Positions 2,794-17,103 of a stretch of 64,000 nucleotides of DNA are shown piece after piece. The stretch is from Sphingomonadaceae bacterium (lineage in GTDB: Bacteria; Pseudomonadota; Alphaproteobacteria; Sphingomonadales; Sphingomonadaceae). Each line of letters opens with the position of its first letter. Within the stretch, counting starts at the first letter, position 1. The notes under the pieces were generated by a model. It was not told the origin of the DNA and made no database searches. It saw nothing but the letters and a program-made list of their open reading frames with translations. Where the stretch lies: assembly GCA_029268145.1 (NCBI GenBank), contig JAJUHA010000004.1, positions 49,607 to 113,606 of the forward strand. The letters run 5' to 3'. The position numbers and the translations under genes are program-made.

Positions 2794-2804
2794 CGGAGCC
2801 GCGG

Positions 2805-3575
2805 TTGCGCCTCCTCCTGCTGCTGGCGCTGCTTCTCGCCGCGCCTGCCGCGGCCTGGGGGCCGACCGGGCACCGCATCACCGGTGACCTTGCCGAGCGC
2901 TACCTCTCGCCCCGGGCGCGCGCCGGCCTTCAGGAGATTCTCGGCACCGAGAGCCTCGAGGAAGCCTCGACCTGGCCCGATCACATGCGCTCGGCGCCCG
3001 GCCTGTTCTGGCGGGTCACGGCAAGCCCCTGGCACTATGTGACCGTGCCCGATGGCCGGCGCTGGCGCGACCAGCCGCCGCCTGCCGAAGGCGATGCGCT
3101 GACGGCCCTTCAGCGCTTCGCCGCCACCATCCGCGATCCCCAGGCGCCGCTGCCGGAGCGCCAGCTCGCGCTGCGCTTCGCCATCCACATCGTCGGCGAT
3201 CTCTCGCAGCCGCTCCATGTCGGCCGCCCCGGCGATCGCGGCGGCAATGATGTCAAGGTCCGCTTTTTCGGCCGCGAGACCAACCTCCACGCGGTGTGGG
3301 ACGGCGATCTCATCGACCATGAGCGGCTCGCCTTCAGCGAATGGGCTGCCCGGCTCCACCGGCGGCTCACGCCCGAGCAGCTCCGGGCCTGGTCGGATCC
3401 GGATCCCGAGCAGTGGGTGGATGATGGCGTCGCCGTCCGCGGCGCCCTCTATCCTCCCGGCCCCGACCTGTCCTGGGACTATGTCCGTGTCCATCGCGCC
3501 ACCCTCGATGCCCAGCTCGCCAAGGGGGGGCTCCGGCTCGCTGCCTGGCTCAACCGCCTGTTCGACCAGCCCTGA
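2805..3575 (+). CDS. Secreted S1/P1-type nuclease
   Basis: 256 residues from a TTG start with GGAG about 8 bases upstream, 11 bases after etfA. A strongly hydrophobic signal peptide ([16 protein letters not shown]) precedes Trp18, which would become residue 1 of the mature protein; in this family the mature N-terminal Trp and nearby His (WGPTGH) are zinc ligands. Further zinc-binding blocks are visible: [25 protein letters not shown] and [11 protein letters not shown]. All the His/Asp ligands expected for the tri-zinc centre of P1 nuclease appear present. The enzyme should degrade single-stranded nucleic acids and remove 3'-phosphates outside the cytoplasm, probably for phosphate or nucleotide scavenging. 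Confidence 0.9.
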
Positions 3576-3642
3576 CGCTTCGCCGCTTGCCCGGCCACGG
3601 CTGCTTGGCTAGCTGGCGCCGGGCAGGCGTAGGGGCTGGCGG

Positions 3643-4503
3643 ATGCGGATCGGGGTCATCGGGGCGGGTATCATGGGGGCAGGCATCGCCCAGGTGGCGG
3701 CTGCGGCCGGGCATGACGTCACGCTCACCGACATCGCGCTTGACCGGGCCGAGGCGGGCAAGGCGGGCATCGGCAAGGCGCTCGACCGTCTGGTCGCCAG
3801 GGGAAGCCTCGAGGCCAGCGCGGCCGCGGCGCTGGTCGGCCGGATCACGCCGGCCGGAGACACGGCGCCCCTGTCCGAGGTCGATGTGGTCATCGAGGCG
3901 GCGACCGAGAGCGAGGAGCTGAAGCGCCGGATCTTCGGCGGGCTCAGGCTTGCCCCGCACGCGCTGCTCGCCACGAACACCTCGTCCATCTCGATCACCC
4001 TGCTGGCGGCAGCGACCGACCGGCCCGACCGCTTCATCGGGCTCCACTTCTTCAACCCCGTCCCGGTCATGAAGCTGGTCGAGATCATCCCGGGTCTTGC
4101 CACCTCGGCAGACACGCAGGCAAGGGCCCGCGTCCTCGTCGAGGGGTTCGGCAAGACCGCGATCGTCTCGGCCGATTCCCCCTCCTTCATCGTCAACCGG
4201 GTGCTCTGCCCGATGCTGAACGAGGCGATCTTCGCGCTGGGCGAGGGCGTCGGCACCGTCGAGGACATCGACAAGGGGCTCCGCCTTGGCGCCAACCACC
4301 CGATGGGCCCGCTGACGCTGGCCGATTTCGTCGGGCTCGACACGCTGCACGCGATCATGCTCGTCATGCAGAAGGCCACCGGCGACCCCAAGTATCGCCC
4401 GGCGCCGCTTCTCACCAAATATGTCGAGGCCGGCTGGTATGGCCGCAAGTCGGGCCGGGGCTTCTACGACTATTCCGGCGAAACCCCGGTGCCGACCCGC
4501 TGA
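3643..4503 (+). CDS. 3-hydroxybutyryl/3-hydroxyacyl-CoA dehydrogenase
   Basis: 286 residues, the usual size for the single-function Hbd/PaaH enzyme. The NAD-binding [11 protein letters not shown] lies at about residues 7-17. The conserved NTSSISIT, the catalytic-His block [14 protein letters not shown], the [18 protein letters not shown] helix and the [16 protein letters not shown] dimerisation block all follow. It oxidises (S)-3-hydroxyacyl-CoA to 3-oxoacyl-CoA with NAD in beta-oxidation or PHB-related metabolism. It is the last rightward gene before the leftward TonB-receptor gene, whose end lies only 16 bases away. Confidence 0.94.
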
Positions 4504-4519
4504 CCTCCGCGCTCCGGCG

Positions 4520-7021
4520 CTAGAAGCGCAGGCTGCCCTCCACCCCGACAAGCCGCCGCGCGCCCGGCGAAATGAACGAGCCGCCGAACTCGATGGCCGG
4601 GATGACCTCGGCGACGAAGCGCTTGTCGGTGAGGTTTTCGGCAAAGCCGACGAGCGACCAGCGATCGGTCTCGATCCCGGCGCGCAGGGCAATGATGCCG
4701 AAGGCGTCGCGCCGGGTGATCCCGTAGTCGGCATTGCCGACGAACGCGGGAAGGCCCAGCGCCGAGCCCGGCAGCAGGCCGGAGAAGAGCGTCGGCTTCT
4801 CCTGGTCCTGCACGGTGTGGAACCAGGTCGGCCCGGTCAGCCGCCAGTCGAACCTCAGCAGCCCGGCCAGTCCGCGCGTGCCGATGGGCTGGCGGATCTG
4901 GGTGCCGAGGTTGACGGTATAGTCGGCGGTGTAGGGGGACTTGTTGCCGACCGTGTCGGGCCGCGAGCTGTTGGCGCGGATCTCGCTTTCGGTCACGTTG
5001 GCCGAGCCGAAGATGGTCCAGCCGTCGCGCAGCTCGGCCGAGACATTGACTTCGCCGCCGTAGAGGCGGACCTTGTCGATGTTGGAGACGACCCGCAGCA
5101 GGCCGAAGCCGCCGACGAAGAACTCGAAGAACTGCATGTCGGTGACGGAGGTGAAGTAGCCGGCAAGGTCGTAACGGACGCGCCCGCCGAACAGCGAGCC
5201 CTTGACGCCCGCCTCCACCGCGCTCGAGGTCTCCTTGTCGAAATCGTCCCGGATCCGGACGTCGGCGCCGATGAAGTCGACGAAGTTCTGCTGGACGATT
5301 GCCGCCGAGCCCTGGTTGTTGAACCCGCCCGACTTGAAGCCGATTCCCCAGTTCGCATAGATGTTGGTGGCCGGGTTGGGCCGGTAGCTGAGGCTCACCT
5401 TGGGCTGCACCTGCGACCAGCTGTCCCGCTTTTCCGTGAGCGGCCCGAAGGCCTGGCCGGGGTTGATCGGCCCTCCGGTGAAGGGGTCGGTCACGTTGGG
5501 CACCAGCGGGATCGCCCGCCGCTTCTCGATGTCGTAGCGGAGCGCGGCGCCGGCCGTGAACCGGTCGGAGAGCTTCCAGTCGGCCGCTCCGAACACGGCA
5601 TAGACGTTGGTGCGGAAATTGTCGGCGAGAAGCTGCGAGGTCGGGTTGGTCGAGCCCGGCGGGTTGTAGATCTCGCGGATGACGCCGTTGCCCGTTTCGC
5701 CGGCGAGGTTGATGGCCACCGTCCGGTCGATGTTGAGATAGTAGAAGCCCGCCTGCCAGGAGAGCGGCCCATCGGTGTTGGAGATGAGCCGGATCTCGGT
5801 GCTCACATCCTCCTGGTCGCGCTTCTGATACTGGGAGCCGTCGCAGGTGGTGGGCGAATAGGGCCCGAAGGTCGAGCCATTGGCGGGCGCGAAGATAAAG
5901 GGCACCGGGATCTGGCCGATGAAGGCCGGCGGGTTGAGCGGATAGCCGGTGAGCGCTGCCGTCGAGGCGAAGCAGGCATTGACCGTGGCCGCGCCCGCCG
6001 GGTCGACGGCGGCGATGTAGCGGGCGAAGTCGGCCGAGGTGCCGTCGGCGACGAGGTCCTGCTTGACGTTGGAGTAGAGGGCCCAGGCGACCAGCCGGAC
6101 GGCACCGAAATCATGGTCGATCTTGCCCGAGAACTCGAACGTGTCCTGGTCGTTGGTCGGCCGGATGTTCGAGTAGAAGTCGAACGGGTGATCGTTCACG
6201 TCCTCGAAGAAGGCCGGGTTGGCGGCCGCGAAGTTGGGGAGATGGAAGGCGGCGTTGAAGGCGATCGAGGCGCCCCGCAGCGTCAGGAACCGGCCCTTCA
6301 GGTCGATCTCGGTCGCGTCGCCCGCCGTGATGACGAAGCGGCCGTCGATCGCGAAGACCTCCTGGTCGTCGACCGTCTTCGACTCCAGAAAGCGGTTGGT
6401 CCACCAGCCGTCGGTCGTGCGATAATAAGCCGAAAGCACGGCTCCCACCCGGTCGTTCATGGGCGCGGCGACGAAGGCATCGCCCTCGAACGTGCGGTTG
6501 TTGGCGCCGAGCAGCCGCGCGCCCGCCTCGAGCGCATCGCCGGGCTTGGCCGTCGTCATCACGATGGCACCCGCAGCCGCGTTGCGGCCATAATAGGCCC
6601 CTTGCGGGCCTTTCAGCACCTCGATCTGCCGCAGCGTGCCCTGGCGCTGGTTGAGCTGGGCGGTGTTGGTCTTGAGGATGCCATCGACGACGAGCGCCAC
6701 CGAGCTTTCGGCGTCGCGCGCGCCATTGATCCCGCGGATGTTGATCTGGGTGTCCCCGGCCTCGGCCGTTCCGGTCACGATGGTGACGCCTGGCGTCAGC
6801 TGGATGAAGGCATCCGCCGTCTGGATGCCGGTCGTGCGGATGGTCTCGGCCGTCAGCACCGTGACCGAGGCCGGCACATCGGCCAGCCGCTCGTCGCGCC
6901 GCCGCGCCGTCACGATGATCTCGTCCCCGGCCGAGTCCGAGACCGTGGGTGCCGGCTGGGCCAGCGCCCCGCCCGGGACCATCGCCGCAGCCGCGGCGCC
7001 AAGCAGCAGGATCGTGCGCAT
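4520..7021 (-). CDS. TonB-dependent outer-membrane receptor
   Basis: 833 residues, full length. A signal peptide (RTILLLGAAAAAMVPGGALAQ) is followed by a TonB-box-like segment (DEIIVTARRRDE) and the plug domain (DVPASVTVLTAETI, YGRNAAAGAIVM). The remainder is a beta-barrel ending VGVEGSLRF with the C-terminal aromatic needed for outer-membrane insertion. Such receptors import scarce or bulky nutrients using TonB energy. It is the last gene of a leftward operon with two SnoaL-like proteins and a racemase-like protein (35-base gap to the SnoaL gene), so it probably imports the compound that the neighbouring enzymes degrade rather than iron. The substrate cannot be read from sequence. Confidence 0.93.
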   Translation of the reverse strand: MRTILLLGAAAAAMVPGGALAQPAPTVSDSAGDEIIVTARRRDERLADVPASVTVLTAETIRTTGIQTADAFIQLTPGVTIVTGTAEAGDTQINIRGINGARDAESSVALVVDGILKTNTAQLNQRQGTLRQIEVLKGPQGAYYGRNAAAGAIVMTTAKPGDALEAGARLLGANNRTFEGDAFVAAPMNDRVGAVLSAYYRTTDGWWTNRFLESKTVDDQEVFAIDGRFVITAGDATEIDLKGRFLTLRGASIAFNAAFHLPNFAAANPAFFEDVNDHPFDFYSNIRPTNDQDTFEFSGKIDHDFGAVRLVAWALYSNVKQDLVADGTSADFARYIAAVDPAGAATVNACFASTAALTGYPLNPPAFIGQIPVPFIFAPANGSTFGPYSPTTCDGSQYQKRDQEDVSTEIRLISNTDGPLSWQAGFYYLNIDRTVAINLAGETGNGVIREIYNPPGSTNPTSQLLADNFRTNVYAVFGAADWKLSDRFTAGAALRYDIEKRRAIPLVPNVTDPFTGGPINPGQAFGPLTEKRDSWSQVQPKVSLSYRPNPATNIYANWGIGFKSGGFNNQGSAAIVQQNFVDFIGADVRIRDDFDKETSSAVEAGVKGSLFGGRVRYDLAGYFTSVTDMQFFEFFVGGFGLLRVVSNIDKVRLYGGEVNVSAELRDGWTIFGSANVTESEIRANSSRPDTVGNKSPYTADYTVNLGTQIRQPIGTRGLAGLLRFDWRLTGPTWFHTVQDQEKPTLFSGLLPGSALGLPAFVGNADYGITRRDAFGIIALRAGIETDRWSLVGFAENLTDKRFVAEVIPAIEFGGSFISPGARRLVGVEGSLRF

Positions 7022-7056
7022 CGTCTCTCACCCCTTCAGCCTGCAGCGCTCGCCCT

Positions 7057-7455
7057 TCAGACGAGGACGTTCGCACCACTCATGTACACGAAGACCTCCT
7101 GGAAGCGGTCTCCCCGGATCCGCCAGAAGTTGGTGTTGAACAGCCGCGTGACCGAGCCGTCGGCCGCGGTCAGCACCGCCTCGAAGCTTGCCGCGATCCG
7201 CCCGTTGGCGGCATCGACGGTGGTCACGAAATCCCGGTGGACGATCCTCTCCCACGCACCGAAGAAGTCGGTGAACATGCGCTCCAGCTCCGCCCTGCCG
7301 GCGTGCGTGGTGAAGCTCGTCTGCACGGTGAAGATGGCCTCGTTGTGGAAGCAGGCGAGGGTTCCGGCCAGATCTTTCCGGTCGACCGCGGCGAAATAGC
7401 GGTGGAACGCCAGGTCGATGAGGCCAGCCCGGTCGAGCGTGCACGGATACTGCAT
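7057..7455 (-). CDS. SnoaL/NTF2-like protein (second copy)
   Basis: 132 residues from the ATG at 7455 (MQYPCTLDRA). It has the NTF2-fold SnoaL layout: an N-terminal helix with FHRYFAAVDRKDL, then a cavity-forming sheet (ACFHNEAIFTVQ, HAGRAELERMFTDFF, HRDFVTTVDAANGRI, ending VFVYMSGANVL). Family members are small dehydratases, isomerases or hydrolases acting on hydrophobic ring compounds, or ligand carriers. Its start shares one base with the stop of a sister gene (TGATG), and both end in a similar VYMSG(E/A)N(L/V)L motif, so the two are probably related by duplication and may form a heteromer. No specific reaction can be assigned. Confidence 0.82.
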   Translation of the reverse strand: MQYPCTLDRAGLIDLAFHRYFAAVDRKDLAGTLACFHNEAIFTVQTSFTTHAGRAELERMFTDFFGAWERIVHRDFVTTVDAANGRIAASFEAVLTAADGSVTRLFNTNFWRIRGDRFQEVFVYMSGANVLV

Positions 7456-7895
7456 CAGGCGTCTCCCGGCTTGAGGAGATTCTCGCCGCTCATGTAGACA
7501 TGAACGCGGTGGAACAGCCGGTCGCGCAGGTAGAAGCGGTTGGCATTCTCGTAGCGCAGCGGGCTTCCGCCGACAGGCGTGATCAGCACGGTGAACTGGG
7601 AGCAGATGGCGTTGGTCTCCGGGTCGGCGACATGGACGAAATTGCCGTGCCAGATCTCGGAGAAGTCGGCGAACAGCTTCTGGAACATGGCACGGATGGC
7701 GGTGTCCCGGCCGGCGTGGACCGTGTTCGAGGTGACCTCGGTGAGGATGGCATCCTCGGTGAAGCAGTCGAGCACCTGCTCGAGGTTCTTGTTGTCGACG
7801 CCGTCGAAATAGCGCTTGGTCACGATGTCGACATAGAAGGGGTAGGGCAAGGGGCGCTGCCCCGGCCCGCCCTCGGTCCACGCCGGCTGCGTCAT
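7455..7895 (-). CDS. SnoaL/NTF2-like protein (first copy)
   Basis: 146 residues from the ATG at 7895 (MTQPAWTEGG). The body matches the NTF2/SnoaL fold: VDIVTKRYFDGVDNKNLEQ, CFTEDAILTEV, HAGRDTAIRAMFQKLF, HGNFVHVADPETNA, then VHVYMSGENLL at the C-terminus. Its start overlaps the stop of the racemase-like gene (ATGA) and its stop touches the next SnoaL gene, so all three are translated as one unit. The conserved VD..N/D..L and YMSG.N blocks are shared with the downstream copy. Function within the island is unknown; a small-molecule dehydratase or isomerase on a bulky substrate is the family-level expectation. Confidence 0.82.
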   Translation of the reverse strand: MTQPAWTEGGPGQRPLPYPFYVDIVTKRYFDGVDNKNLEQVLDCFTEDAILTEVTSNTVHAGRDTAIRAMFQKLFADFSEIWHGNFVHVADPETNAICSQFTVLITPVGGSPLRYENANRFYLRDRLFHRVHVYMSGENLLKPGDA

Positions 7896-8644
7896 GGCAG
7901 GGCCCTCCGGATCTGTTCGGCCTTGTCCACCTCGGGTGCGGGGAAGGCGCGCTTGGAATGGCTGAGGCCGAGCGCGAGAAGAAGCTCGAGCTGCTTCCAC
8001 GCCACCTGGCCCGGATTGATCACCGGCACCGGCAGGTTGGCGGCAAGGAAGGCCGCCGACTGGTGCATGGTGGTCGACCCGAGGACGATCACGTCGGCGC
8101 CATCCTCGGCGATCGCCGCCTCGGCCTCGGCCTTGAGCTTCGCGAAGATCACCTCTTCCTTGCCGGCCAGCAGCTCGGTGACGTCCGGCCGGGTCTCGAT
8201 CGAGCGAAGCGAGGCGACCCGCTCCCAGAGGCCATATTCGGTCAGCGTCTTCTCATAGAGCGGGAACCACTGCGGCCACATGGTGAGCACGGTAAAGCGC
8301 TTGCCCAGCATCATCGCGGTGGCGAACGCTGCCTCGCCAGGTCCCACGACCGGGATCGACAGGGCCGACCGGAGCGCCCTGAGGCCGCTGTCGGACACGG
8401 TGTCGATGAGGACGCCGGAATAGCCCTCGCGCTCGGCATCGATCCCGGCCTGGAAGACCGTCCAGTCCATCAGCAGCATGTCGTGGTAGCTGTCGCCGAG
8501 CGCAGCGCCCCAGGGCACGGCCACGAACTCCGGCCGGAATCCCGGCGAGACCAGCGCGTCGGGCAGCTGCGCTGCCCGAGCCGCCACCCCAGCTGCATCC
8601 ATCGGGATGGGAACGATGACTTTCACGCGGCGAACTCCGGTCAT
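7892..8644 (-). CDS. Asp/Glu/hydantoin racemase-like protein lacking both catalytic cysteines
   Basis: 250 residues from the ATG at 8644 (MTGVRRVKVI), chosen because GGGAGA sits about 5 bases upstream; an in-frame ATG at 8656 would add four residues. The fold markers of the Asp/Glu racemase superfamily are present: VKVIVPIPMD at the start, GVLIDTVSDSGLRALR, IPVVGPGEAAFATAM, RFTVLTMW, and VIVLGSTTMHQSA. In true racemases the two blocks carry a catalytic cysteine each (C in the position of T in IDTVSD, and GC in place of GS in LGSTTM). Here both are replaced and the whole protein has no cysteine. It therefore cannot use the normal two-base mechanism; a lyase, decarboxylase, isomerase or binding role is possible. 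First gene of the leftward operon, preceded by a TGTATACA palindrome. Confidence 0.8.
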   Translation of the reverse strand: MTGVRRVKVIVPIPMDAAGVAARAAQLPDALVSPGFRPEFVAVPWGAALGDSYHDMLLMDWTVFQAGIDAEREGYSGVLIDTVSDSGLRALRSALSIPVVGPGEAAFATAMMLGKRFTVLTMWPQWFPLYEKTLTEYGLWERVASLRSIETRPDVTELLAGKEEVIFAKLKAEAEAAIAEDGADVIVLGSTTMHQSAAFLAANLPVPVINPGQVAWKQLELLLALGLSHSKRAFPAPEVDKAEQIRRALP

Positions 8645-8672
8645 CGTCTCTCCCATTGCCAGCGCTTCGTTC

Positions 8673-8682
8673 TTGTATACAG
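8673..8682. promoter_or_regulatory. Candidate GntR operator, site 1 (TTGTATACAG)
   Basis: TTGTATACAG, with the perfect palindrome TGTATACA at 8674-8681, lies between the racemase-like gene (leftward) and the GntR/FCD regulator gene (rightward). A nearly identical TTGTATACAA occurs at 10135-10144 in the other divergent gap of the island. Short palindromes of the GTATAC type are typical of FCD-subfamily GntR regulators. On the leftward strand TATACA could also serve as the -10 element, so binding would block that promoter. Confidence 0.6.
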
Positions 8683-8726
8683 AGGGCAACGTCAAGCCTT
8701 GCAGCCGGCGGTTTTGACAGGACGGT

Positions 8727-8786
8727 GAGGGAGAGGGAGAGGGAGAGGGGGAGAGGGGGAGAGGAAGGGAGAGAGGGAGGGGGAGA
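8727..8786 (+). repeat. 60-base pure purine tract with GGGAGA repeats
   Basis: Sixty consecutive purines run from 8727 to the A of the gntR start codon. The first part is an imperfect tandem array of GGGAGA units, then GGGGGAGA units, then a degenerate AGGAAGGGAGAG part. The tract contains many Shine-Dalgarno-like GGGAG cores, the last immediately before the ATG. A TTGACA (8714-8719) precedes it but there is no recognisable -10 because the tract occupies that place. Tandem-repeat length could vary by slippage and alter gntR expression. Confidence 0.9.
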
Positions 8787-9448
8787 TGGCGTCGCGCGCG
8801 GCCGACATCGCCTATGCCGAGATTCGCGGTCTCATCCTTTCGGGCGAGGCGCCGCCGGGCACGCGCCTCAAGGAGGAGGAGCTGGCCAGCCGCTGCGGGG
8901 TCTCGCGCACCCCGGTGCGGGACGCGCTCCGCCGGCTCGAAGGCGAGCTCTTCGTCGTAAGAAACGGCGCCAGCCGCATGTTCGTCGCCGACTGGCAGGC
9001 GGAGGATCTGGACGAACTGTTCGCGCTGCGCGGCATGATCGAGGCGCATGCCGCCGCCCGTGCCGCGCTGCGGATCGGGCCCGAGGCGCTCGCTGAGCTC
9101 GAGGCCGTGAACGCCAGGCTCGGCGAGGCCGTCGCCGGCCCCACGCCGGACATCGCCACCTTCCTCGAGGCAAATCGCCGCTTTCACGATCTCGTCATCG
9201 CCGCTGCCGAGTCGCCGCGGCTTCCGGCCGTGCTTGCACTCCTCGTCGAGCAGCCGATCGTGCGCCGCACCGCCCAGCACTATGGCCGCGAGGCGCTCGA
9301 GCGTTCCGCCGCCGAACATGCCGAGCTGGTGCGGGCGCTTGCCGCCCGCGACCCGGAATGGGCGCGCGGCGTGATGACCGGCCACATCCGCCGGGCCTAT
9401 CACGCCTTCGTCGAGGCCTCCCGGGTGGCTCCGGCGCGCGCGAGATAG
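8786..9448 (+). CDS. GntR-family transcriptional regulator, FCD subfamily
   Basis: 220 residues. The N-terminal winged helix (about residues 8-70) contains GEAPPGTRLKEEELASRCGV and SRTPVRDALRRLEGE, the standard GntR recognition-helix region. The C-terminal FCD domain is all-helical and has the expected metal-ligand histidines in NRRFHDLVIAA, AAEHAELVRAL and MTGHIRRAYHAF. FCD regulators bind a small organic-acid effector and usually repress a catabolic operon. It lies between the two operons of the island, and GTATAC palindromes occur in both divergent gaps, so it is the likely local repressor. Its 3' end overlaps the convergent cysteine-hydrolase gene by 49 bases. A long purine tract forms its leader. 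Confidence 0.92.
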   Translation: MASRAADIAYAEIRGLILSGEAPPGTRLKEEELASRCGVSRTPVRDALRRLEGELFVVRNGASRMFVADWQAEDLDELFALRGMIEAHAAARAALRIGPEALAELEAVNARLGEAVAGPTPDIATFLEANRRFHDLVIAAAESPRLPAVLALLVEQPIVRRTAQHYGREALERSAAEHAELVRALAARDPEWARGVMTGHIRRAYHAFVEASRVAPARAR

Positions 9449-10080
9449 GCCAGCGCCTCGTCGAGCCCGATGACATCGGCGGTCTTGGCGGCAAGGTCGA
9501 ACAGGTTGGCCGCGTGGACTCCGGCATCCCGGTCGCCGACTGCCTCGCGCACCACCAGCGGCACCAGGCCATGGCAGAGCGCGTCGACTGCGGTCGCGCG
9601 CACGCACCCCGAGGTAGAAAGGCCGGCGATGACGAGCGTGTCGACGCCCATGCCGCGCAGCATGGCGGCGAGACCGGTGGCGAAGAAGGCGCTCGGATAC
9701 TGCTTGGTCACCACGATGTCGCCCGGCTGCGGCGCGAGCTCGGGGGTGAAGTCGCCCAGCGGGTTGCCGGAATCGAAGCAGGCAAGTGCGGCGATCTTCC
9801 GGTAGAACATCCCCCCGTCGCGCGCCGGGTCGTCACGGACATATTCGACCCGGGTGAAGATGGCGGGCACGTCGGCCGCCCGCGCGGCCTCGGCCAGCCG
9901 CGCTGCCGCGGCGCGCGCCGCCTCGACCCCGGCGTAGAGGGGCGAGTCCGCCACGAAATAGGCGGCGGCGAAATCGATCAGCAGCAGCGCCGGCCGGCTG
10001 CCCCAGGGCAGGCTGCCGCCGAAGCCCGCGGCGCGATAGTCCGCCGCCACGTCCGCCACGTCTGCCTTTGCCATCTCCAT
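9400..10080 (-). CDS. Isochorismatase-fold cysteine hydrolase (N-carbamoylsarcosine amidase-like)
   Basis: 226 residues from the ATG at 10080. The Asp-Lys-Cys triad is visible: Asp36 in ALLLIDFAAAYF, Lys126 in VVTKQYPSAF and Cys159 in GLSTSGCVRATAVDA, with the cis-peptide region before the cysteine. The C-terminal block REAVGDRDAGVHAANLFDL resembles N-carbamoylsarcosine amidase and maleamate amidase, which hydrolyse C-N bonds of carbamoyl or amide compounds. In creatinine breakdown an N-carbamoylsarcosine amidase acts after an N-methylhydantoinase; here HyuA and HyuB are encoded nearby, so a similar sequence is possible but unproven. The gene is divergent from the HMG-CoA-lyase operon and the gap carries the second TTGTATACAA site. 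Confidence 0.87.
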   Translation of the reverse strand: MEMAKADVADVAADYRAAGFGGSLPWGSRPALLLIDFAAAYFVADSPLYAGVEAARAAAARLAEAARAADVPAIFTRVEYVRDDPARDGGMFYRKIAALACFDSGNPLGDFTPELAPQPGDIVVTKQYPSAFFATGLAAMLRGMGVDTLVIAGLSTSGCVRATAVDALCHGLVPLVVREAVGDRDAGVHAANLFDLAAKTADVIGLDEALAYLARAGATREASTKA

Positions 10081-10134
10081 GCCCTTTCCGCTTGCCCTCG
10101 GCGCCGCGGCGGCTATAGGCCCGATTCGCGAAGA

Positions 10135-10144
10135 TTGTATACAA
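10135..10144. promoter_or_regulatory. Candidate GntR operator, site 2 (TTGTATACAA)
   Basis: A perfect 10-base palindrome, TTGTATACAA, in the 103-base gap between the divergent cysteine-hydrolase gene and the HMG-CoA-lyase-like gene. Nine of its ten bases match the site at 8673-8682. Its place in the gap between two divergent transcription units of the same island suggests one GntR/FCD regulator controls both sides. Confidence 0.65.
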
Positions 10145-10183
10145 GACGTCGCCGCACGCCACCGCAAGGCAGGAGGAGCGCGC

Positions 10184-11170
10184 ATGGCAGGAGACCCGCA
10201 TCCCGATGCTCCGCAGCCGGACGCCGCGGCCGTTCGGGCCGAGGCGGTCACCATCGTCGAGGTGGGCCCGCGCGATGGGCTCCAGAACGAGCGCGAGATC
10301 CTCTCCACGGCCGACAAGGTCGCCCTCATCGCCCGCCTCGCCGGGTTCGGCGCCACCCGCATCGAGGTGGCGAGTTTCGTCAATCCGCGCCGCGTGCCGC
10401 AGATGGCCGATGCGGAGGAGGTGATCGCGGCGCTGCCGCCCCGCGCGGCCCGGGGCTACTCCGCCATCGGCCTCTGCCTCAATCTGCGCGGGGTCGAGCG
10501 GGCGCTGGCCACGCTCGCGCTTCCCAACGGCGGGCTCGACGAGGCCGGCTGCGTGCTGGTTGCCACCGACAGCTTTGGCATCCGCAACCAGGGCCAGACC
10601 ATCGCCGACGGCATCGCCGCCAACCGGGAGATGCTGAAGGCCGCGAAGGCAGGCGGTCTTCTGCCCCAGGTCACCATCTCGGCGGCCTTCGGCTGCCCGT
10701 TCGAGGGCGAGGTGCCGCCAGGCCGCGTCGTGGCGCTGGCCGAGGCCATGGCCGAGGCGGGAGCAGCCGAGATCGCCCTTGCCGACACGATCGGAGTCGC
10801 CGTCCCCGCCCAGGTCACCGACCTCGTCGGCAGGGTGCGCGAAGCGGTCGGCGCCGTGCCGCTGCGCATCCACCTCCACGACACCCGCGGCCTTGCCCCG
10901 GCCAATGCCTGGGCGGCGTTCGAGGCGGGCGTCAGGGTGTTCGATTCCGCGCTCGGCGGGCTGGGCGGCTGCCCCTTTGCACCCAGGGCGACCGGCAATG
11001 TCGCGACCGAGGAGCTCGTCTATCTCTTCGAGCGTTCCGGCGTCGCGACCGGCCTTTCGCTCGAGGAAGCGATCGCGGCCAATCACTGGTTCGCGGGCAT
11101 CATGGGCCGGCCGCTTCCCAGCCGGGTCGGCCGGGCCGGGGATTTCGTGGCACAGAAGGAGGCGGCATGA
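10184..11170 (+). CDS. HMG-CoA-lyase-like enzyme
   Basis: 328 residues from the ATG at 10184, which has an excellent AGGAGG ribosome-binding site; upstream in-frame starts lack one. It is a DRE-TIM metallolyase: VGPRDGLQNE supplies the catalytic Arg-Asp, IHLHDTRGL the metal-binding His pair, and GGLGGCPFAPRATGNVATE the active-site cysteine loop with the metal-ligand Asn. All catalytic residues of 3-hydroxy-3-methylglutaryl-CoA lyase are therefore kept. Family members cleave 3-hydroxy-3-alkyl-CoA esters by retro-Claisen reaction, giving acetyl-CoA or a longer acyl-CoA plus a keto acid. As first gene of an operon with HyuAB and a CoA transferase it may perform the last, carbon-carbon-cleaving step. 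True HMG-CoA lyase of leucine breakdown is an alternative, but no leucine-pathway genes are adjacent. Confidence 0.88.
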   Translation: MAGDPHPDAPQPDAAAVRAEAVTIVEVGPRDGLQNEREILSTADKVALIARLAGFGATRIEVASFVNPRRVPQMADAEEVIAALPPRAARGYSAIGLCLNLRGVERALATLALPNGGLDEAGCVLVATDSFGIRNQGQTIADGIAANREMLKAAKAGGLLPQVTISAAFGCPFEGEVPPGRVVALAEAMAEAGAAEIALADTIGVAVPAQVTDLVGRVREAVGAVPLRIHLHDTRGLAPANAWAAFEAGVRVFDSALGGLGGCPFAPRATGNVATEELVYLFERSGVATGLSLEEAIAANHWFAGIMGRPLPSRVGRAGDFVAQKEAA

Positions 11171-13203
11171 GCTATCGTCTGGGGGTGGATGTCGGCGGCA
11201 CCTTCACCGACCTCCTCGTCATCGACGAGGAAAGCGGCGAGACCTGGCGGGAGAAGGTGCCCTCCACCCCCGATGATCCCTCGCGCGCCGTCGTTGCCGG
11301 TTCGCGCGCGCTGTGTGCCAAGGCCGGCGTGGCGCCCGAGGCGCTCTCGCTCTTCCTCCACGGCACCACGGTTGCGACCAACGCGGTGCTCGAGGCCAAG
11401 ATCGCCCGGGTCGGCCTCGTCGTCACCGAAGGCTATCGCCACATCCTCCAGATCGCCCGCAGCCTGGTGCCGGGCGGGCTTGCCGCCTGGATCGTCTGGC
11501 CCAAGCCCGAGCCCATGGCCCCGCTCGAGGCGACCATCGAGGTCAGCGAGCGGATCGCTGCCGACGGCTCGGTCGTCCGCCCGGTCGATGTCGCCGCGCT
11601 GCGCAGGGCCTGCCAGCGCCTGCGGGACGAGAAGGTCGAGGCCGTCACGGTGTGCCTCATCAACGCCTATGTGAACCCGGCGCACGAGCGCGAGGTGGCC
11701 GCCGTCCTCGCCGAGGAGCTTCCCGGCGTGCCGGTCAGCCTCTCCTCCGAGATCCTGCCCGAGATGCAGGAATATGAGCGGGCGCTGACCACGGTCGCCA
11801 ATTCCGCCGTCCGCCCCACGGTTGCCCGCTATGTCGGCAATCTCGACCGCGAGCTGAAGGCCTGGGGGACACCCGCCAAGCTCCACCTGCTGCGGTCCGA
11901 CGGCGGCCTGATGACGGCCGAGAAGAGCGCCGAGGCGCCGGTCAACCTCCTCATGTCGGGCCCGGCCGGCGGTGTCGCCGGTGCCGTGTTCGTGGCGAGG
12001 AACGCCGGCTTTCCCAACGTGCTCACCCTCGACATGGGCGGCACCTCGACCGATGTCGCCCTCATCGAGAACTACGAACCCCGCCTCAGGCGCGAGACCA
12101 GCGTCGGCCACCTGACGGTCCGCGCCTCGTCGCTCGACGTGAAGACGGTGGGCGCGGGCGGCGGCTCGATCGCGAGCGTGCCGGAACTGACGAAGGCGCT
12201 GCGCGTCGGCCCGCAATCGGCCGGCGCGGTGCCCGGCCCCGCCGCCTACGGCCGTGGCGGCGAGCTCCCGACCGTCACCGATGCCAATGTCGTCCTTGGC
12301 TATCTCCCCGAGAATCTGCTGGGGGGGAGCTTCCGGCTCGACCGCGAGGCCTCGAAGCGCGCGGTCCAGACCATTGCCGATGCGCTCGGGCTCGGCCTGA
12401 TGGAGGCCGCCGCCGGCATCATCTCGATCGTCAACGAGACCATGTTCGGCGCGCTCCGCCTCGTCTCGGTCCAGCAGGGCTATGACCCGCGCGATTTCGC
12501 CCTCATGGCCTTCGGCGGTGCCGGGCCGCTCCATGGCAATGCCATGGGGATGCTCATGGGCTCCTGGCCGGTCATCATCCCGCCCTCGCCCGGCATTCTC
12601 TGCGCCTATGGCGATGCGACGACCCGCCTCAGGGTCGATGCCCAGCGGAGCTTCAACCGGCTGGTGACCGAGACGAACGAGGCCGAGGTCGGCGCGGTCA
12701 TCGACACCATCGTCGCCGAAGTCACCGCCGAGCTCGAGACGGAGGGTGTGGCGAGCGCCGACATCGAGCTCCGGGTCGAGATCGACGTCCGCTATAAGGG
12801 CCAGGCCTTCGAGCTGCCGCTGGTCATGCCGGCGGGCGCGACCATCGCCGAGCTCGCCGCCCGCTTCGATGCCGAGCATCTCCGGCTCTTCACCTTCAAT
12901 CTCCCAGTCCCGCAGGAGCTGGTGAACATCCGCGTGGTGGCGCTGGGGAAGGCCGCCAACGTCACCGCCGAGCGGATCGCCGAGGGCACCGGCGACCCCG
13001 CCGCGGCGAAGCTCCGGGATCACGAGCTGTGGATGGATGGCCGGGCGCAGGCCGCCGCCATCTACGACCGCGCGCGGCTCCGCGCCGGAGACCGGGTGCC
13101 GGGTCCGGCCATCATCTGCGAGATGGACTCGACCACGCTCGTCCACGCCGGCCACTTTGCGAGCGTCGACTCCTTCGGCAACATCCTGATCCGGCCCGAA
13201 TGA
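11167..13203 (+). CDS. HyuA-type subunit of N-methylhydantoinase/5-oxoprolinase/acetone-carboxylase family
   Basis: 678 residues, starting at an ATG that overlaps the preceding stop (ATGA). The ASKHA ATPase landmarks are present: VDVGGTFTDLLV at the N-terminus, HGTTVATNAVLE, SGPAGGVAGAVF, LDMGGTSTDVALI and TVGAGGGSIA. HyuA subunits use ATP to activate a carbonyl or lactam and work with HyuB to hydrolyse cyclic amides (hydantoins, 5-oxoproline) or carboxylate ketones (acetone, acetophenone). The subunits are separate here, unlike the fused eukaryotic 5-oxoprolinase, and no acetone-carboxylase gamma subunit is seen. The substrate is unresolved; the neighbouring cysteine hydrolase favours a C-N substrate, the CoA transferase and lyase favour a carboxylation route. 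Confidence 0.9.
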   Translation: MSYRLGVDVGGTFTDLLVIDEESGETWREKVPSTPDDPSRAVVAGSRALCAKAGVAPEALSLFLHGTTVATNAVLEAKIARVGLVVTEGYRHILQIARSLVPGGLAAWIVWPKPEPMAPLEATIEVSERIAADGSVVRPVDVAALRRACQRLRDEKVEAVTVCLINAYVNPAHEREVAAVLAEELPGVPVSLSSEILPEMQEYERALTTVANSAVRPTVARYVGNLDRELKAWGTPAKLHLLRSDGGLMTAEKSAEAPVNLLMSGPAGGVAGAVFVARNAGFPNVLTLDMGGTSTDVALIENYEPRLRRETSVGHLTVRASSLDVKTVGAGGGSIASVPELTKALRVGPQSAGAVPGPAAYGRGGELPTVTDANVVLGYLPENLLGGSFRLDREASKRAVQTIADALGLGLMEAAAGIISIVNETMFGALRLVSVQQGYDPRDFALMAFGGAGPLHGNAMGMLMGSWPVIIPPSPGILCAYGDATTRLRVDAQRSFNRLVTETNEAEVGAVIDTIVAEVTAELETEGVASADIELRVEIDVRYKGQAFELPLVMPAGATIAELAARFDAEHLRLFTFNLPVPQELVNIRVVALGKAANVTAERIAEGTGDPAAAKLRDHELWMDGRAQAAAIYDRARLRAGDRVPGPAIICEMDSTTLVHAGHFASVDSFGNILIRPE

Positions 13204-13748
13204 TGCGCAGCCTCCTCCTCGCCGCCCTGCTCGCGGCCCCCACCCCGGCCGGTGCCGAGATTGTCGCCTCGGCACCCGACGGCTTCACCCTGCGCTTCGA
13301 GGGCGTGGCGGCGCGCCCACCCGAAGACGCCTGGGCCGCGCTTGCCGACTGGAGCGGCTGGTGGCCCGACGCGCACAGCTATTCCGGCAAGGCGTCGAAC
13401 CTTTCCTTCGAGGCCGAGGCCGATGGCGAGCTCGAGGAGGCATGGGAGGGCGGCTCGGTGAGCCACGGCGAGGTCGTGCTTGCCATGCCGCCGAAGCTGC
13501 TGCGCATGCACGCCGGCTTCGGCCCGCTCCAGGCGCTCCCCGTTGCCGGCGTGCTCGAGTTCGCGCTTGCGCCCGAAGGGCAGGGCACCCGCCTCACCAT
13601 GACCTACCGCGTCGGCGGCCCGGCCTCGGCCAGACTCGACAGCCTCGCCGCGCCCGTCCACACCGTGTTCGCCGAGGCCTTCGCCCGGCTTCTTGCCCAC
13701 ACCCCGCCGCCGCCGGACGCCGCGGAGCCGTCGCAGAAGGAGCCCTGA
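13200..13748 (+). CDS. Exported SRPBCC (START-like) protein
   Basis: About 182 residues. Two adjacent ATGs (13200, overlapping the hyuA stop; and 13203) could start it. A short signal peptide (MRSLLLAALLAAPTPAGA) suggests export to the periplasm. The body follows the SRPBCC pattern: FEGVAARPPEDAWAALADWSGWWP, a central sheet and a long C-terminal helix (VHTVFAEAFARLLAH), ending in a proline-rich tail. SRPBCC proteins bind hydrophobic ligands in a deep pocket. It is odd that an apparently exported protein is sandwiched between, and overlaps, genes for two cytoplasmic enzyme subunits; it may bind the imported substrate in the periplasm. Confidence 0.75.
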   Translation: MMRSLLLAALLAAPTPAGAEIVASAPDGFTLRFEGVAARPPEDAWAALADWSGWWPDAHSYSGKASNLSFEAEADGELEEAWEGGSVSHGEVVLAMPPKLLRMHAGFGPLQALPVAGVLEFALAPEGQGTRLTMTYRVGGPASARLDSLAAPVHTVFAEAFARLLAHTPPPPDAAEPSQKEP

Positions 13749-13750
13749 CC

Positions 13751-15628
13751 ATGCCCGCCCGCATCGTCGAGACCAACCCCAAGCCCTTCGCCCCCGTCCC
13801 CATCGATCCCGTCACGCTCGACATCATCGAGAATGCCCTCCGGAACGCGCGCATCGAGATGGACGCGACGCTGACGCGGACCGCCATGTCGCCGGGCATC
13901 CGCGAGCAGGGCGATGCCTTCCCGCTGATTGCCGACCACAGGGGCCGCATGATCGTGGGCCAGTTCGGCAGCTTCATCGATGGCTTCCTGAAAGCCTATG
14001 ACGGCGAGATCGAGGACGGGGACATGATCTTCCTCTCCGATCCCTACAGCTGCGAGGGCGCCATCTCCCACTCCAACGACTGGCTGGTCCTCCTTCCCGT
14101 CTTCCGCTCCGGCCGCCTGGTCGCCTGGACCGCCATGTTCGGCCACCAGTCCGACATCGGCGGCAAGGTCGCCGGCTCGATGCCGATCGACGCCAGTTCG
14201 ATCTACGAGGAAGGCGTGCGCATCCCGCCGGTCAAGCTCTATGCGCGCGGGGTCTACAACGGCGAGCTCATCAAGCTCATCATGCACCAGACGCGCAAGC
14301 CCGACTGGTGCGCGGCCGACCTCAACGCCCTCATCGCCTCCTGCCGGGTCGCCGCCCGCCGGGTCCAGGAGATGTGCGACCGCTTCGGCGAGGATGCCTA
14401 TGTCTCGGCGACCGAGGCGCTCCTCCAGCGCAACTACCGCGCGATGAAGGCGCTCATCGAAAGCTCCGTCTCGACCGATCGCGTCACCTTCGAGGATTAT
14501 GTGTGCGACGATGGCGTGGGCTACGGGCCCTACCGCATCCGCTGCGCCATGTGGCGGGAGGGCTCGAGGGTCATCCTCGACTTCGACGGGACCGACCCGC
14601 AGTCGGAGGCCTCGATCAACTTTTATCTCAACGAGAACATGTTCAAGATGTTCTTCGGCATCTACATGATCATGGTCTTCGACCCGGCGATCATGTTCAA
14701 TGACGGATTCTATGATCTCATCGAGGTCCGCATCCCCGAAGGCTCGCTCCTGAAGCCCCGCTACCCGGCCGCGCTTTCGGGCCGCACCCACGCGCTCGGC
14801 CGCATCTTCGACATCCTCGGTGGCCTGCTTGGCCAGCGCACCCCCGAATTCCTCTGCGCGGCCGGCTTCTCCTCCTCGCCGCACCTCATGTACTCGGGCC
14901 GCGACCGCAAGGGCGAATGGTTCCAGCTGTTCCAGATCGGCTTTGGCGGAATTCCCGGCAAGCCCTTCGGCGACGGCCCCGACGGCCACTCGCTCTGGCC
15001 CGGCTTCACCAATGTTCCCAACGAGTTCCTCGAACGCTACTTCCCGCTGCGGATCGAGCGTTACGAGGCGCTCGCCGACAGCGGCGGCCCCGGCAGGTTC
15101 CGCGGCGGCAACGGCATCAAAATGAGCTACCGCTTCCTCGAGCCCGGCACGGTCTCGATCCACGATGACCGCTGGTTCACCTACCCCTGGGGCGTCAATG
15201 GCGGGAAGCCCGGCGCCCGGGCGCGGAAGATCCTCGAGAAGCCCGACGGCACCACGCGCATCCTCCCCAACAAGGCCGACAGCGTGAAGGTGGAGGAGGG
15301 GGACGTGCTCCACTTCATCACCTGGGGGGGCGGCGGCTGGGGCGACCCGCTCGAGCGCGACCCGGCGCTGGTTGCGAAGGAAGTCCGCCAGGGTCTCGTC
15401 ACCCCCGAGGGCGCGCGCCGCTACGGAGTCGTCTGCGATGCCGAGGGCGCGCTCGATGCAGCGGCGACCGAAGCGCTGCGGGCAGGGATGCGCGCTGCAG
15501 CCACCAGCAACGCCCTGTTCGACTTCGGCGGCACGATCGAGGAGCTGCGCGCGCGCTGCGAGGCCGAGACCGGCCTGCCCGCGCCGAAGCCGCCGGTGTG
15601 GCAGCATCTGAAGCAGGCCGCGGAATAA
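13751..15628 (+). CDS. HyuB-type subunit of N-methylhydantoinase/5-oxoprolinase/acetone-carboxylase family
   Basis: 625 residues from the ATG at 13751, two bases after the SRPBCC stop. Family landmarks are DPVTLDIIENALRNARIEMD at the start, then LIADHRGRMIVGQFGS, DGDMIFLSDPYSCEGAISHS, FGHQSDIGGKVAGSMP and EEGVRIPPVKLY, then the C-terminal GGPGRFRGGNGI and ITWGGGGWGDPLERDP. HyuB carries the metal-dependent half of the reaction; it acts with HyuA after ATP activation. Length is on the long side for HyuB (commonly about 520-590). With HyuA encoded one gene upstream the two almost certainly form one complex, whose substrate is unknown. Confidence 0.9.
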   Translation: MPARIVETNPKPFAPVPIDPVTLDIIENALRNARIEMDATLTRTAMSPGIREQGDAFPLIADHRGRMIVGQFGSFIDGFLKAYDGEIEDGDMIFLSDPYSCEGAISHSNDWLVLLPVFRSGRLVAWTAMFGHQSDIGGKVAGSMPIDASSIYEEGVRIPPVKLYARGVYNGELIKLIMHQTRKPDWCAADLNALIASCRVAARRVQEMCDRFGEDAYVSATEALLQRNYRAMKALIESSVSTDRVTFEDYVCDDGVGYGPYRIRCAMWREGSRVILDFDGTDPQSEASINFYLNENMFKMFFGIYMIMVFDPAIMFNDGFYDLIEVRIPEGSLLKPRYPAALSGRTHALGRIFDILGGLLGQRTPEFLCAAGFSSSPHLMYSGRDRKGEWFQLFQIGFGGIPGKPFGDGPDGHSLWPGFTNVPNEFLERYFPLRIERYEALADSGGPGRFRGGNGIKMSYRFLEPGTVSIHDDRWFTYPWGVNGGKPGARARKILEKPDGTTRILPNKADSVKVEEGDVLHFITWGGGGWGDPLERDPALVAKEVRQGLVTPEGARRYGVVCDAEGALDAAATEALRAGMRAAATSNALFDFGGTIEELRARCEAETGLPAPKPPVWQHLKQAAE

Positions 15629-15632
15629 TCCC

Positions 15633-16841
15633 ATGACAAAGGCCAATCCCGGCCCGCTCGCGGGCCTGCGCGTGGTCGAGATGGGCCAGCTCATCGCCGG
15701 CCCCTTCTGCGGCCAGCTCCTCGGCGACATGGGCGCCGATGTCATCAAGATCGAGCCGCCCGGCCAGGACGGCAAGCGCGGCGGGGACCCGATGCGCGAC
15801 TGGGGCCGCGGCGAGTATCCGCTGTGGTGGGAAGTCGTCGCCCGCAACAAGAAGTCGGTCTCGATCAACCTCCGCGTGCCCGAGGGGCAGGCCCTCGCCC
15901 GCCGCCTCATCCTTTCCGCCGACATCCTCATCGAGAATTTCCGGCCCGGCACGCTCGAGGGCTGGAATCTCGCGCCCGCCGACCTGCTGGCCGAGAAGCC
16001 CTCGCTCATCGTGGTGCGCGTCTCGGGCTATGGCCAGACGGGGCCCTATGCCGATCGCGCCGGCTTCGGTGGCATCGGCGAGGCCATGGGCGGCTGGCGC
16101 GCCATCGTCGGCGATCCGGATCGTCCGCCGGCGCGCATGGGCGTCTCCATCGGCGATTCGCTTGCCGCCACCTTCGGCTGCATGGGCGCGCTCGCCGCGC
16201 TGCGCCACCGCGACCGGACCGGCGAGGGCCAGGTCATCGACAGCGCCCTCTACGAGGCGGTGCTCCAGGTGATGGAGAGCCTGGTGCCCGAATACACGGT
16301 CTCCGGCTATCTGCGCGAACGCTCCGGCTCGGTCCTGCCCGGCGTTGCCCCCTCCAACGTCTATCCCTGCGCCGACGGCGAGTTCCTCATCGGCGCCAAC
16401 CAGGACACGGTGTTCGGCCGCTTGTGCGCGGCCATGGGCCGCCCCGAGCTCAAGGACGACCCGCGCTACGCAACCCACATCGCCCGGGGCAGGCACCAGA
16501 AGGAGCTGGACGACCTGATTGCCGAGTGGACGCGGACGCTGACGGTGGCCGAGCTCGAGGCGAAGATGGTGGAAGCCGGCGTGCCTGCCGGGCGCATCTA
16601 CCGCGCGCCCGACATGCTGGAGGATCCGCACTTCCGGGCCCGCGAGGCGCTCGTCGAACTCCCCCACCCGCGCTGGGGCACGATCACCATGCAGAACAGC
16701 TTCCCGAAATTCTCGAAGACGCCGGGCGGCATCCGCAGCCTCGCCCCCCAGCGGGTGGGCGAACACAATGCCGAGGTGCTCGGCGCGCTGGGCCTTGGCG
16801 AGTCCGAACGGGCCGCCCTTGCCGCGCGCGGCGTGATCTAG
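15633..16841 (+). CDS. Class III (CaiB/BaiF-type) CoA transferase
   Basis: 402 residues, four bases after hyuB. It has the family start (GPLAGLRVVEMGQLIAGPFCGQLLGDMGADVIKIE split over residues 7-41), NKKSVSINL, DILIENFRPGTLEGW, SGYGQTGPYADRAGF and, at about residue 175, the Asp of VSIGDSLAATFG, the position of the catalytic aspartate that forms the acyl-enzyme anhydride in formyl-CoA transferase. These enzymes move CoA between carboxylic acids. As last gene of the island operon it probably activates the acid made by the upstream enzymes, giving the CoA ester that the HMG-CoA-lyase-like enzyme could cleave. Confidence 0.92.
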   Translation: MTKANPGPLAGLRVVEMGQLIAGPFCGQLLGDMGADVIKIEPPGQDGKRGGDPMRDWGRGEYPLWWEVVARNKKSVSINLRVPEGQALARRLILSADILIENFRPGTLEGWNLAPADLLAEKPSLIVVRVSGYGQTGPYADRAGFGGIGEAMGGWRAIVGDPDRPPARMGVSIGDSLAATFGCMGALAALRHRDRTGEGQVIDSALYEAVLQVMESLVPEYTVSGYLRERSGSVLPGVAPSNVYPCADGEFLIGANQDTVFGRLCAAMGRPELKDDPRYATHIARGRHQKELDDLIAEWTRTLTVAELEAKMVEAGVPAGRIYRAPDMLEDPHFRAREALVELPHPRWGTITMQNSFPKFSKTPGGIRSLAPQRVGEHNAEVLGALGLGESERAALAARGVI

Positions 16842-16968
16842 CCGCCACGGCACGGGGTCCGTCGCCGCCTTCCCGCCGTGCGGCCTGGCGCCGGGGCCGG
16901 CTGCGCCGCGGGCGAGCCGGCGGACCGGCACGACGCCGGCCGCGGCCGCCTCTGGCAAGGGGTGAAAA

Positions 16969-17045
16969 TGGTCGGGGAAAGAGGATTCGAACCTCCGGCC
17001 CCCGCCTCCCGAAGACGGTGCTCTACCAGGCTGAGCTATTCCCCG
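16969..17045 (-). tRNA. tRNA-Pro (anticodon CGG)
   Basis: Read leftward, a full cloverleaf can be drawn: 7-base acceptor CGGGGAA/TTCCCCG, D arm GCTC...GAGC, anticodon stem CCGTC/GGCGG with loop TTCGGGA (anticodon CGG), and T arm GGAGG TTCGAAT CCTCT region, followed by discriminator A and an encoded CCA. This decodes CCG proline codons, heavily used in such a GC-rich genome. It sits between the CoA-transferase gene and a convergent ferredoxin reductase gene. No duplicated tRNA 3' end was noticed nearby, so there is no sign that it served as an attachment site for the island. Confidence 0.95.
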
Positions 17046-17103
17046 GACCGAGCGCCGCCAATAGGAGCGCCGGGCGCCGGGCGTCAACCCCGGAGCGCTC
17101 CCG

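Follow-up and report, generated by a model that had tools for sequence, protein, structure and literature searches.

Two adjacent operons in a sphingomonad genome form a conserved gene set, and we predict that they act as a single regulon for the degradation of a small cyclic imide, a reading to which we give slightly better than an even chance; the imide is likely to be of the alkyl-maleimide or succinimide class. The genes lie at positions 4520-16841 of a 64,000-nucleotide stretch (the window) of contig JAJUHA010000004.1 from a Sphingomonadaceae bacterium (assembly GCA_029268145.1), whose 2.66 Mb genome, in 82 contigs, is placed in the same genus as Thermaurantiacus tibetensis. A leftward operon of four genes encodes a racemase-fold protein (Rac), two SnoaL-like proteins (a and b) and a TonB-dependent receptor, and a rightward operon of five genes encodes an HMG-CoA-lyase-family enzyme (HMGL), HyuA, an SRPBCC protein, HyuB and a class III coenzyme A (CoA) transferase (CoAT). 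A GntR/FCD regulator and a cysteine hydrolase (CysH) are encoded between them. This layout had been described in an earlier reading of the DNA made from its letters (the original prediction), and comparison with Pfam and NCBIfam recovered every gene, with the families as described. The tight gene packing that it reported was also seen, with 4 bp overlaps between HMGL and HyuA and between HyuA and SRPBCC followed by gaps of 2 and 4 bp, as was the lack of cysteine in Rac (0 in the window protein).

We searched for related loci with an alignment of Rac, which returned 249 relatives, and counted gene families in the best 80 of these. Apart from SRPBCC, family counts ranged from 51 (CysH) to 79 (GntR) of the 80 loci (see table). 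The ten families other than SRPBCC were found together at 49 of the 80 loci, and at 43 of the 59 loci where at least 20 kb of sequence was covered; with CysH set aside, the remaining families were together at 63/80 and 55/59, respectively. Carriers include Blastomonas, Erythrobacter, Porphyrobacter, Parasphingorhabdus, Altererythrobacter and Novosphingobium. Hence, the co-occurrence that the original prediction proposed to check holds for ten families, including CysH, which had been placed outside the operons. The SRPBCC protein, which had been counted as a member, is not conserved and is evidently a local, lineage-specific addition; a relative that is 48% identical occurs at locus L204.

The whole genome contains the motif TTGTATACA three times, two of these being ahead of the two operons, and the reversed motif, used as a control, had no match in the same genome. 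Across the 80 related loci (1.49 Mb), 141 of 141 strict motif sites fell upstream of cluster genes, seven in number, within a zone reaching from 350 bp ahead of the gene start to 60 bp into the gene. The motif was found upstream of GntR in 74/79 cases, Rac in 71/80, HMGL in 61/71 and CoAT in 29/69, and upstream of CysH in 4/51, TonB in 3/78 and HyuA in 3/74; these counts overlap, since divergent genes such as Rac and GntR share sites. The motif is kept at each half where the two operons lie on separate contigs (G001/G157) or several kb apart (Eilatimonas milleporae). Given this rare motif ahead of both operons, and its position upstream of cluster genes in relatives, the two operons very likely constitute one regulon. 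An FCD regulator thus accompanies a conserved palindrome ahead of the genes, and the GntR/FCD protein is the probable regulator, presumed to act through TTGTATACAA. The third genomic site, also TTGTATACAA, is on contig 14 (G000:C14:37749-37758; L050 9750), ahead of another TonB receptor gene. That receptor is 30% identical to the one in the window and has a divergent winged-helix regulator gene alongside; these genes may also belong to the regulon. Immediately 5' of the gntR start codon in the window, positions 8726-8785 hold a purine-rich simple repeat of the GAGGGA type.

Features of the window region, with family assignments and the number of loci, out of 80, in which each family was found
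Feature	Position	Strand	Family or remark	Loci (of 80)
TonB-dependent outer-membrane receptor (predicted uptake)	4520..7021	-	PF00593/PF07715	78
SnoaL-like protein b	7057..7455	-	PF12680	76
SnoaL-like protein a	7455..7895	-	PF12680	75
Rac, cysteine-free Asp/Glu/hydantoin racemase fold	7892..8644	-	PF01177	
Operator-like palindrome TTGTATACAG	8673..8682	+	between Rac and gntR	
GntR/FCD regulator, presumed binder of TTGTATACAA	8786..9448	+	PF00392 + PF07729	79
CysH, isochorismatase-family cysteine hydrolase, predicted half-amide amidase	9400..10080	-	PF00857	51
Operator-like perfect palindrome TTGTATACAA	10135..10144	+	between cysH and HMGL	
HMGL, HMG-CoA-lyase-family enzyme, predicted alkylmalyl-CoA-type lyase	10184..11170	+	NF004283	71
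HyuA, ATP-binding subunit	11167..13203	+	PF01968/PF05378/PF19278	74
SRPBCC protein, lineage-specific insertion, not core	13200..13748	+	PF10604	1
HyuB, metal-site subunit	13751..15628	+	PF02538	68
CoAT, class III (CaiB/BaiF) CoA transferase	15633..16841	+	NF052585	69
tRNA-Pro (CGG)	16969-17045		follows closely on CoAT	

We reasoned about the chemistry from the enzyme families, beginning with HyuAB. The ATP motifs of HyuA are intact (DVGGTFTD8, DMGGTSTD289, GAVPGP353), and HyuB has the metal residues Asp55, His107 and Asp110 (HSND), and His132 (FGHQ). Asp55, His107 and Asp110 are invariant in 18 rows; His132 is present in the window protein and is not on the invariant list. Definitions of these motifs and metal sites for HyuA/HyuB-type enzymes, including metal residues common to carboxylases and hydrolases, are given in the portion of PMC8453981 available to us. 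Among NCBIfam models, HyuA scored 521.8 bits against the caprolactamase alpha subunit (CapA; cut-off 1000) and at most 287 against acetophenone carboxylase models. Among solved structures, the nearest was N-methylhydantoinase (445 bits), with 5-oxoprolinase at 368, acetophenone carboxylase gamma at 285 and alpha at 154, and acetone carboxylase beta at 247-248. The gamma subunit of acetone and acetophenone carboxylases has no gene between or beside hyuAB, the gene that separates them being SRPBCC, and two subunits without gamma are a mark of the hydrolase branch, according to excerpts of PMC5214803. From the two-subunit make-up, the intact motifs and the HyuA scores, we conclude that HyuAB is, as far as sequence can tell, built like an ATP-dependent cyclic amidohydrolase and not like a carboxylase. 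A tree placed 12 HyuB sequences on one side of a branch with 100/100 support and 6 less related HyuB on the other. The 12 come from sphingomonads, another alphaproteobacterial order, another class (presumably Gammaproteobacteria), Geobacillus, Rubrobacter and haloarchaea; the window HyuAB is thus placed in a monophyletic clade.

The strongest clue to the substrate class is the amidase, CysH, to which the original prediction assigned no role. The isochorismatase-family amidase triad is Asp-Lys-Cys, and CysH has the corresponding motifs (LLID33, TK125 and SGCV157). Among solved structures, its best matches are N-carbamoylsarcosine amidohydrolase, at 147 bits, and 3ot4/3uao, at 133 bits; we take 3uao to be the maleamate amidase NicF. 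HMGL scored 292.4 bits against NF004283 (cut-off 246), and its motifs PRDGLQNE, HLHDT and GGCP, which in this family supply the catalytic Arg/Asp, HxHD and Cys, are intact. Since HMGL is paired with a CoA transferase, its substrate may be other than HMG-CoA itself. CoAT was compared with the succinyl-CoA-dependent class III (SUGCT/mesaconate) type; its best score was 270.9 bits, against NF052585, under the equivalog cut-off of 750, which gives a family placement only. Its solved relatives include 4ed9, formyl-CoA transferase, and the succinate-HMG and benzylsuccinate CoA transferases.

Several sphingomonads (L136, L234, L235) have a companion operon with two PuuE-fold genes and a second CysH, LeuCD, HMGL and CoAT. 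The window genome has, elsewhere, a second LeuCD (68/57% identical to the companion-operon copies) and only one other HMGL (E 1e-30). The latter is in a CoAT2-HMGL2 pair (69/64% identical to the companion copies), such that both HMGL genes of this genome are paired with a CoA transferase. Among companion loci L136, L142, L143, L234 and L235, some also have a KstD-like FAD dehydrogenase and an NmrA-like reductase, and the gene sets in view vary. KstD-like, NmrA, GST and aldehyde dehydrogenase neighbours were rejected as members of the set, being found at a minority of loci. An XdhC-like gene (a possible link to a molybdenum hydroxylase) is near 10 of the 80 loci, distal to the cluster.

Members of the HyuAB clade keep similar company outside the sphingomonads. 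In 10 loci from 9 genomes outside the order, we found CysH at 8, LeuCD at 7, CoAT with HMGL at 7, and either module at all 10; of 11 annotated plasmid loci in the clade, 9 have an isochorismatase-fold amidase and 8 a lyase. LeuCD genes lie in the cluster, or within about 6 kb of it, in another class of the phylum, in Geobacillus and in Acidiphilium, the latter two also having CoAT and HMGL. At locus L193, Rac, SnoaL b, CoAT, HMGL, HyuA, HyuB, CysH, LeuC and LeuD are all encoded inside 17 kb. Haloarchaeal loci have either CoAT and a LeuA/citramalate-synthase-like protein (L161, L163) or an isocitrate lyase/phosphoenolpyruvate (PEP)-mutase-family (ICL/PEPM) lyase alone (L160, L162, L164), and the Rubrobacter locus has CoAT and no lyase. 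At L140, a paralogous HyuAB stands beside a MaoC protein and a CitE whose nearest match is the itaconate-pathway lyase RipC (223 bits, cut-off 375); relatives of this CitE and MaoC are found at L207 and L208, and these loci apparently represent an alternative form of the pathway built on itaconate-type enzymes. The three paralogous clusters also include a TonB gene and a CysH-like gene. The lyase module is therefore swappable among genomes, the alternatives being families that make or split malate-type acids. As a control, we examined eight plasmid loci with less related HyuAB (32-35% identity). Using annotation and the same tblastn search, we found amidase, CoAT, HMGL, LeuCD and ICL/PEPM in 0/8, and an M20 hydrolase in 5/8. 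No M20 gene is in the window cluster or adjoins HyuAB in the 11 annotated in-clade loci; L158 has one, about 10 kb from HyuAB. Thus, the possibility raised in the original prediction, that HyuAB is a plain 5-oxoprolinase or N-methylhydantoinase, is not borne out, since the neighbours of this clade differ from those of less related HyuAB.

Rac and the SnoaL proteins appear to be an addition to this core. In a set of 148 related genomes, the HyuB clade (E 1e-130) is present in 53 and a Rac orthologue (at least 51% identity) in 15, all of which are among the 53 (hypergeometric P 4.8e-8); because the HyuAB core is distributed more widely than Rac, Rac and SnoaL look like an add-on. A structural model of Rac (pLDDT 88.8) has the racemase fold and is nearest to allantoin racemase (TM 0.80-0.89), an enzyme that acts on a cyclic ureide. 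Asp/Glu/hydantoin racemases have two catalytic cysteines; the equivalent positions of Rac, set by alignment with L052, are Thr and Ser in 80/80 orthologues, and Ser and Ser in two more distant proteins, so Rac is not a racemase of the two-cysteine type. Our guess is that Rac is a ring isomerase that works without cysteines. A Rac relative in Variovorax (L168) is encoded beside CysH and two PuuE-fold genes, and one in Tistrella (L157) beside an ICL/PEPM lyase and MmgE/PrpD; in both, a second racemase-fold gene adjoins the Rac relative. SnoaL a and SnoaL b are paralogues (36% identical). The AF2 model of SnoaL a (pLDDT 92.9) has limonene-epoxide hydrolases as its nearest solved folds, and profile matches to SnoaL a include a designed ketosteroid isomerase.

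We favour a cyclic imide as the substrate because the set encodes two C-N hydrolases that would act in succession, the first on a ring and the second on an open amide, and then enzymes of branched, malate-type dicarboxylates. In the proposed pathway, the TonB receptor would import the compound, and the add-on of Rac and two SnoaL proteins would probably isomerise or prepare the ring ahead of HyuAB. HyuAB, using ATP, would open the C(O)-N ring to give a half-amide, from which CysH would free NH3, leaving a branched dicarboxylate. A LeuCD-type hydratase, encoded elsewhere on the window genome (the second LeuCD), would convert this to a tertiary hydroxy acid (an alkylmalate), the class III CoA transferase would attach CoA, and the HMGL-type lyase would release an acyl-CoA (acetyl-CoA if the carbon is unsubstituted) and a 2-oxo acid. 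The outline given in the original prediction, of uptake, ATP-dependent ring opening, CoA activation and C-C cleavage, fits this gene set; a bulky compound, terpenoid, aromatic ketone or lactone as the substrate is not supported. Consistent with its statement that it knew of no described pathway with the whole set, we found no published description of the gene set in open-licence PMC full text.

A lactam or a hydantoin fits less well, the first giving rise to an amine and the second to an amino acid. We nevertheless weighed a hydantoin or cyclic-ureide route, in which a racemase-like step, opening by HyuAB and decarbamoylation by CysH would be followed by degradation of the skeleton by CoAT and the lyase. 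The top solved match of HyuA is N-methylhydantoinase, that of CysH is N-carbamoylsarcosine amidohydrolase, and the Rac model is nearest to allantoin racemase, all as expected for this route. However, Rac lacks both catalytic cysteines, less related HyuAB loci have the M20 hydrolase (5/8) and never CoAT or these lyases (0/8), and an amino acid product would presumably need no LeuCD, CoAT or malate-type lyase; we therefore consider it unlikely. Known hyuABCE hydantoin clusters comprise HyuAB, a racemase and a carbamoylase. The window resembles them in having HyuAB, a racemase-fold protein and a nitrogen-releasing hydrolase, and differs in that this hydrolase is an isochorismatase-fold amidase, with no M20-type carbamoylase beside HyuAB, in the loss of the racemase cysteines, and in the addition of CoAT and a C-C lyase.

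A lactam or oxindole route would resemble anaerobic auxin (iaa) degradation, which uses a CoA transferase: HyuAB would open the lactam, CoAT would activate an aryl dicarboxylate and HMGL would cleave it. The closest NCBIfam model for HyuA is indeed CapA, and CapAB, the caprolactamase of Pseudomonas jessenii, has the same ATP and metal motifs; HyuA is nonetheless far under the equivalog cut-off. The hydantoinase-like hydrolase IaaCE of Aromatoleum, described in the section of PMC8453981 at hand, offers a further parallel. We judge this route to be quite improbable, since a lactam yields an amine and needs no amidase step, leaving both the amidase and LeuCD unexplained, and there is neither an oxygenase nor a thiolase among the conserved families. 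We found no paper in open-licence PMC full text that links the gene set to auxin- or oxindole-type compounds.

It is more doubtful still that the operons are co-regulated and serve separate substrates, the left (Rac, SnoaL, TonB) being independent of the right (the HyuAB core). The core is found without Rac and SnoaL in many genomes (53 vs 15 of 148), and distant Rac relatives stand without HyuAB, but Rac orthologues occur only where the HyuB clade does (15/15) and the motif is shared. Finally, we reject ATP-dependent ketone carboxylation with subsequent CoA transfer and cleavage by the lyase, envisaged in part in the original prediction, as highly improbable: despite the shared superfamily and metal-site residues, there is no gamma subunit, HyuA is far nearer to N-methylhydantoinase and caprolactamase than to ketone carboxylase chains (154-285 bits), and an amidase accompanies HyuAB.

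Elements of the cyclic-imide pathway have precedents. Itaconate degradation uses a CoA transferase, a MaoC-type hydratase and the RipC/Ccl lyase; it shares with our proposal CoA transfer to, and cleavage of, a branched C5-type dicarboxylate, and RipC-like CitE and MaoC occur at L140, whereas the window has an HMGL-type lyase and an imide-opening front end. The 2,3-dimethylmaleate branch of nicotinate fermentation uses a hydratase and an ICL/PEPM lyase, and LeuCD-type hydratases or ICL/PEPM-family lyases are found as modules beside the HyuAB clade; that branch is anaerobic and is not known to involve HyuAB. In Aspergillus nidulans, the cyclic imidase HxnM and then the amidase HxnN convert an imide to a half-amide and a dicarboxylate, and HxnM is related to PuuE and HpPgdA, as reported in the available part of PMC9304392. 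The proposed steps follow the same logic, and the companion operon has PuuE-fold relatives. The fungal imidase is of another fold and acts on a six-membered hydroxy-imide, and CoA steps are not reported in that part of the source.

Several observations weigh against a cyclic-imide regulon. The substrate and chemistry are predictions from gene content, and the roles of Rac and SnoaL are guesses. The best solved match of CysH is a carbamoyl hydrolase, scoring slightly above 3ot4/3uao, so a ureide substrate is possible, and CysH is present at just 51/80 loci. No hydratase is encoded in the window cluster, and a strict motif is absent from both the second LeuCD and the CoAT2-HMGL2 pair found elsewhere in the genome (L232, L233). 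The companion PuuE-fold genes score 90-149 bits, compared with a PuuE model cut-off of 425. Racemase-family genes (3/8) and polysaccharide-deacetylase (PuuE-fold) genes (2/8) are found beside control HyuAB too, so these neighbours are not clade-specific. Two long loci with HyuAB (L093, L100) have no HMGL, the genome with L100 (G075) having an HMGL copy (65%) elsewhere. Distant Rac relatives (46-53%, plasmid rows H1-H6) do not need HyuAB; in the three that we examined, no HyuAB gene was in view over some 10 kb. Lastly, the HyuAB loci of JE1 and TomTYG65 lack amidase and lyase. These near-identical loci (L153, L165) are on plasmids pJE1 and pTomTYG65b and also encode two FAD enzymes, an alcohol dehydrogenase and a succinate-semialdehyde dehydrogenase; our literature search found no paper on pJE1.

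The tRNA-Pro gene beyond CoAT was the sole match in an Rfam scan of window positions 1-20000. A recent genomic island at this tRNA was considered and rejected, since the same cluster is beside the same HBD gene in T. tibetensis (L036); a scan of the plus strand found no direct repeat of at least 13 bp flanking the tRNA.

The distribution of the clade points to one possible source of imides. The window genome has reaction-centre genes (PF00124). Among the 148 relatives, the HyuB clade is present in 16/20 genomes with reaction-centre genes and 37/128 others, and in 11/15 reaction-centre genomes when the window genus is left out (P 1.1e-3). Across the order, at a HyuB threshold of E 1e-200, the figures are 49/71 and 61/276 (odds ratio 7.9, P 3e-13), or 19/22 and 25/58 by genus (P 8e-4); omitting the largest genus gives an odds ratio of 4.4, its unlisted members still being counted in the total. 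Some genomes are in both sets, and relatives cannot be treated as independent in these statistics. This co-occurrence, a correlation only, hints at pigment-derived maleimides. Methyl-, methylethyl- and methylvinylmaleimide, together with hematinic acid, are described in PMC7318184 as breakdown products of chlorophyll or heme that have been reported from senescent leaves and lake sediments; in the leaves of that study itself, hematinic acid was found and maleimides were not. Conversion of porphyrins to maleimides by bacteria is treated in PMC8669743, which we do not count as evidence for the link. In the pigment version of the pathway, ATP would drive the opening of alkylmaleimides and alkylsuccinimides; loss of ammonia and hydration to dialkylmalates would follow, and interchangeable lyases would make the final cut. 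The cysteine-free racemase-fold enzyme would isomerise the imide ring. Against this link, the association fails in genus g114 (0/9), carriers with reaction-centre genes number 0/5 in another class and 3/4 in the same class outside the order, and a shared sunlit habitat could explain the correlation. We therefore offer only as a speculation, and one that is rather unlikely, that these bacteria, many of them phototrophs, have a route devoted to the final monopyrrolic remnants of chlorophyll, bacteriochlorophyll, heme and bilins.

Our analysis assigns a testable function to a monophyletic clade that is spread across bacteria and haloarchaea and is now named only "hydantoinase/oxoprolinase", and likewise to a conserved sphingomonad regulon. 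Rac, if it is an enzyme, would represent a family with the racemase fold whose members do without the cysteine pair found in the relatives known so far. Should the substrates prove to be maleimides, it would become possible to test directly what happens to the smallest products of tetrapyrrole breakdown, and the pigment route, if true, would fill a gap at the end of the global pigment cycle.

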